A DNA stretch of 64,000 nt from Streptomyces calvus (GTDB lineage: Bacteria > Actinomycetota > Actinomycetes > Streptomycetales > Streptomycetaceae). Positions 17,291 through 24,335 of this stretch are shown here, one piece after another. The translations under genes and the position numbers were made by a program. Positions within the stretch are counted from its first letter, which is position 1; the number at the start of each line of letters is the position of its first letter. The notes beneath the pieces are model-generated. The model was not told the origin of the DNA and searched no databases. It worked only from the letters and a program-made list of their open reading frames with translations. The stretch lies in the NCBI RefSeq assembly GCF_006782915.1, contig NZ_VCNP01000010.1:310001-374000 (forward strand), written 5' to 3'.

Positions 17291-17355
17291 TTGACAGCCC
17301 CTTCCCCTCACGGGCAATCTTCCAGTACGCAGAATTCAACTTCCGCAATACGAAA
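17291..17355 (+). promoter_or_regulatory. hyi promoter with tandem 15-bp boxes
   Basis: -35 TTGACA (17291-17296), 18-bp spacer, -10 candidate CAATCT (17315-17320). Two boxes of pattern TTCC-N7-(A/G)(G/A)AA follow: TTCCAGTACGCAGAA (17320-17334) and TTCCGCAATACGAAA (17341-17355), start to start 21 bp. The gcl promoter has the same arrangement. Position over and just after the -10 fits a repressor. In Streptomyces the IclR-family allantoin regulator AllR controls these genes; assigning these boxes to it is inference. Confidence 0.75.
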
Positions 17356-17380
17356 TAATAACTGGGAGGAGCGCGGACCG

Positions 17381-18220
17381 ATGGGATTCGCCGACCAGCG
17401 CTTCAACGTCAACCTGTCGATCCTCTTCACGGAACTCCCGCTCCTGGAGCGCCCGGCGGCCGCCGCCGCGGCCGGCTTCACCGCGGTCGAGCTGTGGTGG
17501 CCCTGGATCGACTCGCCCACCCCCGCGCAGGCCGAACTCGACGCACTGCGGGCCGCGATCGAGAACGCGGGAGTACGGCTCACCGGCCTGAACTTCTACG
17601 CCGGGCAGCTGCCGGGCCCCGACCGCGGCGCGCTGTCCGTCCCCGGTGAGGAGTCGGAGCGGTTCCGCGCCAACGTCGACGTGGCCGCCGACTTCGCCGG
17701 ATCCCTCGGCTGCACGGCCCTCAACGCCCTGTACGGCAACCGGATCGAGGGCGTGGACCCGGCCGAGCAGGACGCGCTCGCGCTGGAGAACCTCACCCTG
17801 GCGGCCCGCGCCGCCGACCGGATCGGCGCGGTCCTGCTGGTCGAGGCGCTGAACGCGCCCGAGTCGCCCCGCTACCCGCTGGTCTCCGCGCCGGCCGCCG
17901 TGGGCGTCGTGGACAAGGTCAACGCGGCGACCGGGCTGGACAACGCCCGGTTCCTGATGGACCTGTACCACCTGGCCATGAACGGCGAGGACCTGCCGCG
18001 GGTCATCGAGCGCTTCGCCGCGCAGACCGGCCACGTGCAGATCGCCGACAGTCCCGGCCGCGGCGCCCCGGGCACCGGTTCGCTGCCGCTGGAGGACCTG
18101 CTCGACCGGCTGCGCGAGGCCGGATACGAGGGCTGGGTCGGCCTGGAGTACAAGCCGGGCGACCGTCCGAGCGCCGAGTCCTTCGACTGGCTGCCCCGCG
18201 AGGCCCGCGCCGCCCGCTGA
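17381..18220 (+). CDS. hyi: Hydroxypyruvate isomerase
   Basis: Interconverts hydroxypyruvate and tartronate semialdehyde in glyoxylate assimilation. 279 residues of the xylose-isomerase-like TIM-barrel family. Metal/substrate residues appear in LLVEALN, DLYHLAMNGEDL, HVQIADSPGRGAPGTG and GWVGLEYKPG. ATG 17381 has GGGAGGAG about 10 nt upstream and starts the conserved FNVNLSILFTELP strand; an earlier open frame crosses the terminator and is ignored. First gene of an operon with glxR 32 bp downstream. Confidence 0.95.
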   Translation: MGFADQRFNVNLSILFTELPLLERPAAAAAAGFTAVELWWPWIDSPTPAQAELDALRAAIENAGVRLTGLNFYAGQLPGPDRGALSVPGEESERFRANVDVAADFAGSLGCTALNALYGNRIEGVDPAEQDALALENLTLAARAADRIGAVLLVEALNAPESPRYPLVSAPAAVGVVDKVNAATGLDNARFLMDLYHLAMNGEDLPRVIERFAAQTGHVQIADSPGRGAPGTGSLPLEDLLDRLREAGYEGWVGLEYKPGDRPSAESFDWLPREARAAR

Positions 18221-18252
18221 TCACCACCCCCGCACCGAGAGGCACCCTCACC

Positions 18253-19146
18253 ATGAGCAACAACCTCCCCACGATCGCCTGGATCGGCCTCGGCATCATG
18301 GGCTCGCCCATGTCCGAGAACCTGATCAAGGCGGGTTACGACGTCACCGGCTACACCCTGGAGCGGGAGAAGCTGGACCGGCTGGCCGCCGCCGGCGGCA
18401 CCGCCGCCCCGTCCGTCGCCGAGGCGGTGCGCGACGCGGACGTGGTCATCACCATGGTCCCGGCGTCCCCGCAGGTCGAGGCGATCGCGTACGGCCCCGA
18501 CGGCATCCTGGAGAACGCCCGGTCCGGCGCCCTGCTGATCGACATGTCCTCCATCACCCCGCAGACCTCGATCGACCTCGCGGCCGCCGCGAAGGACAAG
18601 GGCATCCGGGTGCTCGACGCCCCGGTGTCGGGCGGTGAGGCCGGTGCCGTCGAGGCCGTGCTGTCCATCATGGTCGGCGGTGAGCAGGCCGACTTCGACG
18701 AGGCCCGGCCGGTCTTCGAGGCGCTGGGCAGGACGATCGTGCTGTGCGGCCCGCACGGCTCCGGACAGACCGTGAAGGCCGCCAACCAGCTGATCGTCGC
18801 CGTGAACATCCAGGCGTGCGCCGAGGCCGTGGTCTTCCTGGAGAAGTCCGGCGTGGACCTGGCGGCGGCCCTGGACGTGCTGAACGGCGGCCTGGCCGGC
18901 TCGACGGTACTGACCCGCAAGAAGGACAACTTCCTGAACCGGGACTTCGCGCCGGGCTTCCGCATCGACCTGCACCACAAGGACATGGGCATCGTCACCG
19001 ACGCCGCCCGCACCGTCGGCGCGGCGCTGCCCGTCGGCGCCGTGGTCGCACAGCTGGTCGCGAGCCTGCGCGCGCAGGGCGACGGCGGCCTGGACCACTC
19101 CGCGCTGCTGCGCGCGGTCGAGCGCCTGTCCGGCGCACAGGTCTGA
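18253..19146 (+). CDS. glxR: 2-hydroxy-3-oxopropionate (tartronate semialdehyde) reductase
   Basis: Reduces tartronate semialdehyde to D-glycerate with NAD(P)H. 297 residues. N-terminal Rossmann motif [10 protein letters not shown] (about 11-20), substrate motif [11 protein letters not shown] (about 120-130) and catalytic Lys in [12 protein letters not shown] (about 176) are those of the beta-hydroxyacid dehydrogenase family. AGAGGCACC precedes the ATG. Downstream of hyi; with gcl at 22424 it completes the glycerate route from glyoxylate. Confidence 0.96.
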
Positions 19147-19241
19147 GCCCCGTACCGCCGAAGACCTCCGGGCGGCGCCGCCGCCGACACCTGTCCTGTC
19201 GCGCCCAAGGCGCCGGCGCCGCCCGGAACTCCACCCACCAC

Positions 19242-19283
19242 TTCAACAAACTGTTGACGCTTCGACCGCCACAAACCTAGGCT
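19242..19283 (+). promoter_or_regulatory. Catalase promoter with the 19-bp palindromic element
   Basis: TTCAACAAACTGTTGACGC (19242-19260) matches the urate-operon element at every base. The inverted repeat TCAACA-AAC-TGTTGA spans 19243-19257. The -35 TTGACG (19254-19259) overlaps the right arm; after 18 bp comes the -10 TAGGCT (19278-19283). The translation start is about 45 bp past the predicted transcription start. Confidence 0.78.
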
Positions 19284-22362: not shown

Positions 22363-22381
22363 GTACGGGCCGGGACGCCGC

Positions 22382-22404
22382 GGGGGGGGGGGGGGGCCCC
22401 CCCC
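22382..22404. repeat. G15-C8 homopolymer tract
   Basis: Fifteen G followed directly by eight C between the convergent TIGR04222-like and gcl genes. It can form a GC hairpin for both strands and may act as a bidirectional terminator, or its length may be a sequencing/assembly artefact. Confidence 0.6.
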
Positions 22405-22423
22405 TCGACCGTCCTCGCCGGCG

Positions 22424-24208
22424 TCAGGCCTTCAGCGTCCTGATCGACGTCGGGGCGTGCGCCGGCTCCGTCGCCAGTTCCTCGAACTCCACGACGTTGC
22501 CGATGTCGTTGGTCGTCGACATGGAGATGTTGGTGACGCGCTCCAGGATCGCCTCCACCACGACCGGCACCCGGAACTCGGCCGCGAGCTGCTTGGCCCG
22601 CTCCAGGGCCGCGCCCAGCTCGCCGGGGTCGGTCACCCGGATCGCCTTGCAGCCCAGGCCCTCGGCGACCTTCACGTGGTCGACGCCGTACACGCCGAGT
22701 TCGGGGGTGTTGATGTTCTCGAACTCCAGCTTGACCTGGAAGTCGATGTCGAACGCGCGCTGCGCCTGCCGGATCAGGCCCAGATAGGCGTTGTTGACCA
22801 GGACGTGGACGTAGGGGATCTTGTGCTGCGCGCCGACGGCCAGCTCCTCGATCATGAACTGGAAGTCGTAGTCGCCGGAGAGGGCGACGACCTGCGCGCC
22901 GGGGTCCGCCTTGGCCACGCCGAGCGCGGCGGGGACGGTCCAGCCGAGCGGGCCGGCCTGGCCGCAGTTGATCCAGTGGCGCGGCCGGTAGACGTGCAGC
23001 ATCTGCGCGCCGGCGATCTGCGACAGGCCGATGGTGGAGACGTACCGGGTCTCGGGGCCGAACGCCTTGTTCATCTCCTCGTAGACCCGCTGCGGCTTGA
23101 TCGGCACGTCGTCGAAGTGGGTACGGCGCTGGAGCGTGGCCCGCTTCTCCTGCGCGGCGGCGGCCCAGGCGGAGCGGTCCGGCAGCGTCCCCTCGGCCTT
23201 CATCTCCTTGGCGGCCTCGACGAACAGCTCCAGCGCGGCGCGCGCGTCGGAGGCGATGCCGTAGTCCGGGGCGAAGATCCGGCCGATCTGGGTGGGTTCG
23301 ATGTCGACGTGGACGAACGTGCGCCCGGCCGTGTAGACGTCGAGCCGGCCGGTGTGGCGGTTGGCCCAGCGGTTGCCGATGCCGAGGACGAAGTCCGACT
23401 CCAGGAACGTGGCGTTGCCGTAGCGGTGCGAGGTCTGCAGGCCGACCATGCCGGCGTTGAGTTCGTGGTCGTCGGGCAGGACGCCCCAGCCCATCAGCGT
23501 CGGCACCACCGGGGTGCCGGTCAACTCGGCGAACTGGACGAGCAGTTCGGCGGCGTCCGCGTTGATGACGCCGCCGCCCGCGACGATCAGCGGGCGTTCG
23601 GCGGCGTTGAGCATGCCGATCGCCTTCTCGATCTGGGCGCGGGAGGCGGCCGGCTTGTAGACCGGGAGCGGCTCGTAGGTGTCCGGGTCGAACTCGATCT
23701 CCGTCAGCTGCACGTCGATCGGCAGGTCGATCAGGACGGGGCCGGGGCGGCCGGAGCGCATCAGGTGGAAGGCCTGCTGGAAGACGCCGGGGACCTGCGC
23801 GGCCTCCAGGACGGTGACCGCCATCTTGGTGACGGGTGCGGCGATGGAGGCGATGTCGACGGCCTGGAAGTCCTCCTTGTGGATCACGGCGGTCGGGGCC
23901 TGGCCGGTGATGCAGAGGATCGGGATCGAGTCGCCGGTCGCGGAGTACAGCCCGGTGATCATGTCGGTGCCGGCCGGTCCCGAGGTGCCGATGCAGACGC
24001 CGATGTTGCCCGCGTGGGTGCGGGTGTAGCCCTCGGCCATGTGCGAGGCACCCTCCACATGACGGGCGAGGGTGTGGGTGATGCCGCCGGACGCCTTGAG
24101 GGCCGCGTAGAAGGGGTTGATCGCCGCGCCGGGGACACCGAACACGTCGGTGACGCCCTCCCGCTTGAGGATCTCAACTGCCGCGCGGGCAGCGGTCATT
24201 CGAGCCAT
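22424..24208 (-). CDS. gcl: Glyoxylate carboligase (tartronate-semialdehyde synthase)
   Basis: Joins two glyoxylate molecules to tartronate semialdehyde and CO2; ThDP and FAD dependent. 594 residues, the family's usual length. Val51 in [17 protein letters not shown] replaces the Glu of other ThDP enzymes, a glyoxylate-carboligase hallmark. The ThDP motif starts [17 protein letters not shown] and ends NNAYLGL. ATG 24208 ([18 protein letters not shown]) has GCAGGAG 7 nt upstream; an in-frame GTG at 24241 lacks a ribosome site. Transcribed towards the TIGR04222-like gene; its promoter carries the same tandem boxes as hyi. Confidence 0.97.
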
Positions 24209-24267
24209 CGAGTACTCCTGCTTCGGCTGTCGGATTCGCACTCCCGTCGCGCCCCGCGGTGAGCTTC

Positions 24268-24335
24268 TTCCGTATGATGGAAATTAAGTTCTACTATCTG
24301 GAATAAATGTAGGTCGGGTCGCCGAGGCCCGTCAA
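24268..24335 (-). promoter_or_regulatory. gcl promoter with tandem 15-bp boxes
   Basis: On the minus strand: -35 TTGACG (24335-24330), 18-bp spacer, -10 TACATT (24311-24306), then TTCCAGATAGTAGAA (24303-24289) and TTCCATCATACGGAA (24282-24268), start to start 21 bp. Over the 36 bases spanning both boxes, this promoter and the hyi promoter agree at most positions, including the linker. Confidence 0.78.

Follow-up and report, generated by a model that had tools for sequence, protein, structure and literature searches.

The genome of Streptomyces calvus (RefSeq assembly GCF_006782915.1; 8,004,119 bases in 68 contigs) carries the genes for a hydroxypyruvate isomerase family protein (hyi) and glyoxylate carboligase (gcl) within a 64,000-nucleotide stretch of contig NZ_VCNP01000010.1 (positions 310,001 to 374,000, or C2:310001-374000 in our contig numbering; hereafter the window), and each of the two promoters is followed by a pair of similar boxes. 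Which protein binds these boxes, and which other genes does it reach? The boxes prove to be an operator of a known kind, and are very probably recognized by an IclR-family regulator of the Streptomyces AllR type, whose gene would be the one located about 26.5-27 kb to the left of the window.

Both promoters comprise a TTGAC(A/G) -35 element, an 18-bp spacer and a -10 element followed by two boxes, and the box starts are 21 bp apart at hyi and at gcl alike (Table 1), as a sequence-only reading of the window had described. The box pairs of that reading stand, but its box definition, TTCC-N7-RAA, was rejected because it matches just one of the four hyi and gcl boxes; the correct form is a 15-bp TTCC-N8-RAA. 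It had also held that the linker is conserved along with the whole 36-bp region, which is not general. The hyi and gcl operators are identical at 25 of 36 bases (11 of 15 in each box, three of six in the linker), and among distinct same-genus sites the mean column information of the linker is 0.49 bit for gcl and 0.54 bit for the allantoinase gene (allB), compared with 1.17-1.75 bit for the boxes; the hyi linker (1.20 bit) is more conserved than these two. Box 1 overlaps the -10 element by 1 bp at hyi but follows it after a 2-bp gap at gcl, a difference of 3 bp.

The 36-bp N8 pattern has exactly two perfect matches in the window. Allowing two mismatches, five rows at three places were obtained, namely hyi and gcl (each on both strands) and a new place at 19261-19296; shuffled windows gave 0.04 on average, and none of 100 shuffles reached five. 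Among 26 genomes of the same genus, hyi loci were collected from 23 (threshold 1e-80) and gcl loci from 21 (strict threshold 1e-250), and a box pair free of mismatches to TTYC-N8-RAA-N6-TTYC-N8-RAA precedes all 23 hyi and 20 of the 21 gcl loci, the sole miss being a stretch cut off 19 bases short of the gene match; within the two genes, control stretches show 4-7 mismatches. Around the operator, the hyi promoter is kept in most of the same-genus hyi loci shown. When the linker was left free between 0 and 14 bp, with at most one mismatch and with loci at contig ends left out, a spacing of 21 was recovered in 19/19 gcl, 22/22 hyi and 23/25 allB-allR regions; any other spacing occurred in at most nine loci per set, and one base-shuffled copy of each region gave no match. 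The tandem boxes of hyi and gcl are real and well conserved.

A scan of the S. calvus genome with at most one mismatch returned 11 rows at eight distinct places, and the reversed-pattern control returned none. Six of the eight places precede genes linked to allantoin or glyoxylate: hyi, gcl, allB together with the neighbouring IclR-family gene (allR), malate synthase A, an NCS1 permease (best NCBIfam match: allantoin permease, under its cut-off), and a gene encoding a DUF6986 protein. The other two were set aside as background, C51:157072 because it lies inside a called gene and C54:160165 because it overlaps the 3′ end of a gene, the next called start being some 500 bp further on. Matches had been predicted at the allantoinase, allantoicase, malate synthase and allR promoters, and the scan did find the allB-allR region and, more weakly, malate synthase A. 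The allantoicase gene (alc) comes after allB on the same strand; the site upstream of allB would therefore serve alc too if the two form one operon. The pairs of allB, the permease and DUF6986 begin at, or immediately after, the -10 element of a promoter with a TTGAC -35 element; the malate synthase A site is weaker, and its first box falls within the promoter spacer. The allB-allR region contains a box pair with at most two mismatches in 25 of the 26 same-genus genomes. Before DUF6986, 17 of 19 loci have a pair within two mismatches of TTYC-N7-GRAA pairs; the pattern was loosened after this result, and among the best 80 named loci (79 of them named Streptomyces) 77 then match with at most one mismatch, controls inside the gene showing at least five.

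A model built from sequence only (R1; 21 training sites) gave seven matches in the same genome, where 150 of 491 candidates were scored: hyi, gcl, the permease, allB, DUF6986, a catalase gene in the window, and C39:87018. The last (C39:87018-87047, E 0.78) is unexplained. Applied to 15 further stretches, R1 gave 11 matches. These include matches in L172 and L170, loci of other families within the class that are absent from the training set. In L172, matches lie upstream of a malic-enzyme-like gene and DUF6986 (7773-7808, full length), upstream of uricase (12860-12895, also full length), and upstream of hyi (18471-18495 and, on the opposite strand, 18481-18504). In L170, a full-length match (13222-13187) lies upstream of malic-enzyme-like, malate synthase, DUF6986 and ureidoglycine aminohydrolase genes, and another (17124-17159) upstream of an uncalled gene.

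The neighbour of the allB site encodes HTH_IclR (PF09339) and IclR_C (PF01614) domains (C2:282564-283313) and is present in all 26 same-genus genomes. The earlier suggestion of an IclR-type allantoin/glyoxylate regulator (AllR) encoded outside the window gains support from this gene and from the sites at pathway genes. The arrangement is that of IclR tandem operators, with sites 21 bp apart and a site upstream of the IclR gene itself, and the sites at allantoin pathway promoters agree with a Streptomyces AllR regulon. AllR of Streptomyces coelicolor, the subject of work by Navone et al. in 2015, is reportedly an IclR-family regulator of allantoin pathway genes. The present gene belongs to the same genus, family and pathway and stands beside allB and alc; judging from genus and gene neighbours, it is probably the orthologue of that published protein. 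Its product scores 115.6 against the E. coli AllR equivalog NF007548 (cut-off 406) and 198.3 against the BhcR equivalog NF045644 (cut-off 350). Because it falls under the former cut-off and scores better with BhcR, "AllR" here denotes the Streptomyces protein of that name and not an orthologue of the E. coli one.

The operator consists of four alternating half-sites, TTCC, RRAA, TTCC and RRAA, 10-11 bp or about one helical turn apart, an arrangement that would leave room for two dimers on the same face of the helix. Each dimer might recognize either TTCC-N7-RRAA, within a box, or RRAA-N6-TTCC, across the linker. As the operator begins at the -10 element and would cover the transcript start, a bound protein should block RNA polymerase. 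A pathway intermediate such as allantoate or glyoxylate may then cause the protein to release the DNA, which would allow joint expression of gcl, hyi, tartronate semialdehyde reductase, allantoinase, allantoicase, the NCS1 permease, malate synthase A, DUF6986 and, more weakly, catalase. In the passage of PMC11438217 that cites Navone et al., allantoic acid is stated to inhibit DNA binding by AllR to a lesser extent.

Several results weigh against this assignment or its reach. The genome contains 13 IclR_C matches, so that another member could bind; the malate synthase A site is weak and was not reported by R1 even though it is a training site; five of the seven R1 matches in the genome are training sequences, which leaves only catalase and C39:87018 as independent; the strict pattern of the spacing control matches just one of 19 DUF6986 regions, where the first box is a variant; and R1 sites were found in two of the nine DUF6986 loci from other genera, the remaining seven having no match. 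The number of IclR_C proteins, and the scores of the allB neighbour below the cut-offs of named IclR equivalogs, would suit a scheme in which the boxes are bound by another regulator, whether of the IclR family or not, and the gene beside allB is simply a neighbour. This is unlikely, since a box pair occupies that gene's own intergenic region in 25 of the 26 same-genus genomes, and L170, a DUF6986 locus with box matches, also contains an allR homologue. IclR-family proteins can act as activators, and the AllR-type protein might thus activate from the boxes; the position of the boxes at or just after the -10 element in hyi, gcl, allB, the permease and DUF6986 suits blocking (malate synthase differs), which makes activation very improbable. 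That the likeness of the hyi and gcl promoters arose by chance or local duplication, for which the 7 kb between the genes might speak, was rejected as scarcely conceivable in view of the shuffles, the spacing control, the differences between the promoters outside the operator, and the retention of the sites at both genes across the genus and their recurrence on other contigs.

Operators for AllR-type repression would not be anatomically unusual. In E. coli, allantoin and glyoxylate genes are under IclR-family control. The AllR and IclR operators listed in Table 1 of PMC8222616 (KTTGGAAWAWTWTTCCAAC and TGGAAATNATTTCCA) have GGAA inside and TTCC outside, whereas TTCC comes first in each 15-bp box here; compared with these listed operators, the RRAA-N6-TTCC reading across the linker is nearer than the box reading. 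PMC8222616 gives tandem sites 18-22 nt apart, centre to centre, in 94 IclR orthologous groups; the 21 bp found here fits, and no anatomical feature sets the hyi and gcl sites apart from the tandem operators described there. The same paper mentions sites of three alternating boxes in some IclR groups, which the catalase and L172 hyi sites, keeping three half-sites, resemble. The AllR targets of Navone et al. (2015) may already include the hyi, gcl, permease, catalase and DUF6986 sites; the reach of the regulon to DUF6986 and catalase, and a second palindrome described below, form the new part of the present analysis.

What, then, does the DUF6986 protein contribute to this regulon? Its gene (C52:572994, 434 aa; with the site, C52:572943-574298; L025, L028) matches PF22484, a family of unknown function, with 631.5 bits and barely passes the cut-off of PF03328, HpcH/HpaI (25.4 bits, cut-off 25); the Pfam scan gave these two families only, with no match to PF04115 (AllA). 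No paper in the literature collection searched mentions DUF6986. The AlphaFold model is of middling quality (mean pLDDT 70.1, pTM 0.75). With it, Foldseek returned no match under E 0.001, the top entries being the CitE-like lyase 3qqw and malate synthases, and VIA-align scored it at Z 17.2 against malate synthase A 3cv2 (288 aligned, rmsd 5.4) and at Z 15.5 against the malyl-CoA lyase 5ugr. A profile search of the PDB gave the malyl-CoA lyases 5ugr (6.5e-05) and 4l9y (2.2e-04), and the score against the malyl-CoA lyase family NF041626 was 35.1, short of its cut-off of 500. The likeness of modelled fold and profile clearly points to the HpcH/HpaI-CitE/malate synthase superfamily, which makes glyoxylate a likely substrate or product.

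DUF6986 tends to occur in genomes that have allantoicase. Orthologues (at least 617 bits) occur in 19 of 31 genomes searched, namely S. calvus and all 18 of the same genus, the other 12 having weak matches only; the five same-genus genomes without gcl at the strict threshold retain the gene. In one sample of 198 Actinomycetota genomes (full length taken as more than 370 bits; the contig-edge fragment G043 and matches under 50 bits left out), full-length DUF6986 was found in 17, allantoicase in 18 and both in 15. Fisher tests of this co-occurrence, uncorrected for descent, give p values of 8.6e-18 when genomes are counted, 4.4e-10 when genera are counted and 2.6e-9 when the own genus is left out. 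In the two genomes that have DUF6986 but no allantoicase, a ureidoglycine aminohydrolase scores above its cut-off (two of eight genomes asked), so that one or the other enzyme supplies a source of ureidoglycolate in 17/17. AllA was found in four of the 198 genomes, none of which has allantoicase or full-length DUF6986, and in 0/19 genomes of a separate check. All nine loci from outside the genus have allantoin, urate or glyoxylate genes no more than 20 kb from DUF6986; the order is allB, alc, hiuH, uricase, DUF6986 in L174, apparently the same in L175 and without uricase in L176, and malic-enzyme-like, malate synthase, DUF6986, ureidoglycine aminohydrolase in L170.

It is tempting to speculate that DUF6986 is the missing actinobacterial ureidoglycolate lyase, an enzyme of CitE/malate-synthase fold, found both in the tandem-operator regulon and in the urate-allantoin operons of other families; we offer this tentatively, as a possibility that falls short of even. 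AllA, from an unrelated family, would then fill the same pathway step. Three Actinomycetota genomes (G067, G103 and G115) have allantoicase but lack AllA, full-length DUF6986 and any ureidoglycine aminohydrolase that passes the cut-off, which speaks against DUF6986 as the only solution. The main rival, itself a doubtful possibility, is a condensation of the malate synthase type that uses glyoxylate, as the fold neighbours (malate synthases and malyl-CoA lyases) and the malic-enzyme-like gene directly before DUF6986 in L172 would suggest. However, the genus already has a malate synthase A with a site, a malate synthase adjoins DUF6986 in L170, and the DUF6986 model aligns only to residues 16-391 of malate synthase A. 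The C-terminal domain of malate synthase carries the catalytic aspartate, and an alignment of this extent would omit it. A reaction of another type is a further possibility.

The new place in the window lies before the catalase gene. R1 matches this box with 14.3 bits (E 0.0043 in the window; E 0.54 for 19283-19309 in the whole genome, independent of training), and a box was seen by eye in 11 of 18 relatives. The same promoters carry a second, different palindrome: TTCAAC-N5-GTTGAC lies over the -35 element in 18/18 catalase promoters shown, with identical letters (TTCAACAAACTGTTGACG) in 17 of them. The same 17 letters recur as TTCAACAAACTGTTGAC at the urate operon of the window and before the uricase of L172 (L172:12820). 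The allantoinase promoter has the palindrome at C2:282298, and TTCAAC-N5-GTTGAA is present in the allB-allR regions of 21/26 same-genus genomes exactly and of 23/26 with at most one mismatch. Within the window, TTCAAC-N5-GTTGAM occurs at eight places with at most two mismatches against 0.14 expected; most of them lie outside promoters of the catalase or urate type, and only the conserved ones should therefore be trusted. This palindrome marks catalase, urate-operon and allantoinase promoters. Urate oxidase produces hydrogen peroxide, so a catalase in this region makes sense.

Since the 17-bp palindrome is unlike the 15-bp box, a second regulator is likely. A lead is the small HTH_22 gene upstream of the urate operon, whose product may bind the palindrome; L172 and L175 have homologues next to uricase or allantoin genes. 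In L175, no TTCAAC-N5-GTTGAM palindrome was found within one mismatch, despite the HTH_22 homologue. The HTH_22 gene has a small partner (window 3333-3584, minus strand); homologues of this partner in L172 and L175 match PF01910 (thiamine-binding-like), and in L172 a single open reading frame joins HTH_22 and partner. A single 14-bp TTCC-N7-GAA match (TTCCGCAGCACGAA, window 2780-2793, minus strand) lies downstream of the urate-operon promoter and is possibly a degenerate AllR-type box. Elsewhere in the window (52325-54640, minus strand), a xanthine dehydrogenase-type molybdopterin-binding subunit is 58% identical to that of L168.

Table 1. Features of the hyi-gcl region and of the related sites. 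Positions without a contig prefix are those of the window.
Feature	Position	Strand	Description	Basis
hyi promoter	17291..17320	+	-35 TTGACA 17291-17296, 18-bp spacer, -10 CAATCT 17315-17320	sequence
hyi operator box 1	17320..17334	+	TTCCAGTACGCAGAA	pattern search, shuffles, same-genus conservation
hyi operator box 2	17341..17355	+	TTCCGCAATACGAAA	pattern search, shuffles, same-genus conservation
gcl promoter	24306..24335	-	-35 TTGACG 24335-24330, 18-bp spacer, -10 TACATT 24311-24306	sequence
gcl operator box 1	24289..24303	-	TTCCAGATAGTAGAA	pattern search, same-genus conservation
gcl operator box 2	24268..24282	-	TTCCATCATACGGAA	pattern search, same-genus conservation
hyi	17381..18220	+	hydroxypyruvate isomerase family	NCBIfam TIGR03234, 317.7 bits (under cut-off 353.45)
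glxR/garR	18253..19146	+	tartronate semialdehyde reductase	NCBIfam TIGR01505, 483.7 bits (cut-off 340.75)
gcl	22424..24205	-	glyoxylate carboligase	NCBIfam TIGR01504, 1214.8 bits (cut-off 711.2)
Box pair, allB-allR intergenic region	C2:282391		allantoinase-IclR gene	genome scan, at most 1 mismatch
Box pair before malate synthase A	C2:284614		weaker	genome scan, at most 1 mismatch
Box pair before NCS1 permease	C34:94715			genome scan, at most 1 mismatch
Box pair before DUF6986	C52:572943			genome scan, at most 1 mismatch
Catalase gene	19334..20791	+	named from sequence, no family scan	open reading frame
Catalase AllR-type box and further half-site	19282..19308	+	box 19282-19296, behind -10 CTAGGC 19277-19282	
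Putative second operator, catalase	19242..19258	+	TTCAAC-N5-GTTGAC, overlaps -35 TTGACG 19254-19259	
Putative second operator, urate operon	2831..2847	-	TTCAACAAACTGTTGAC, at uraD-hiuH-uricase promoter	
uraD, hiuH, uricase	944..2726	-	2726-2256, 2218-1838, 1828-944	tblastn ranges
HTH_22 gene	2968..3336	-	small, upstream of urate operon; candidate regulator of second operator	PF13309, 73.8 bits

The tandem operator links a regulon that is spread over three contigs and brings an enzyme of unknown function, of the family PF22484, into it. The presence of a second palindrome points to separate regulators for the urate half and the allantoin half of the pathway. In a genus that has allantoicase and in which no AllA was found, DUF6986 offers a candidate for the step from ureidoglycolate to glyoxylate.

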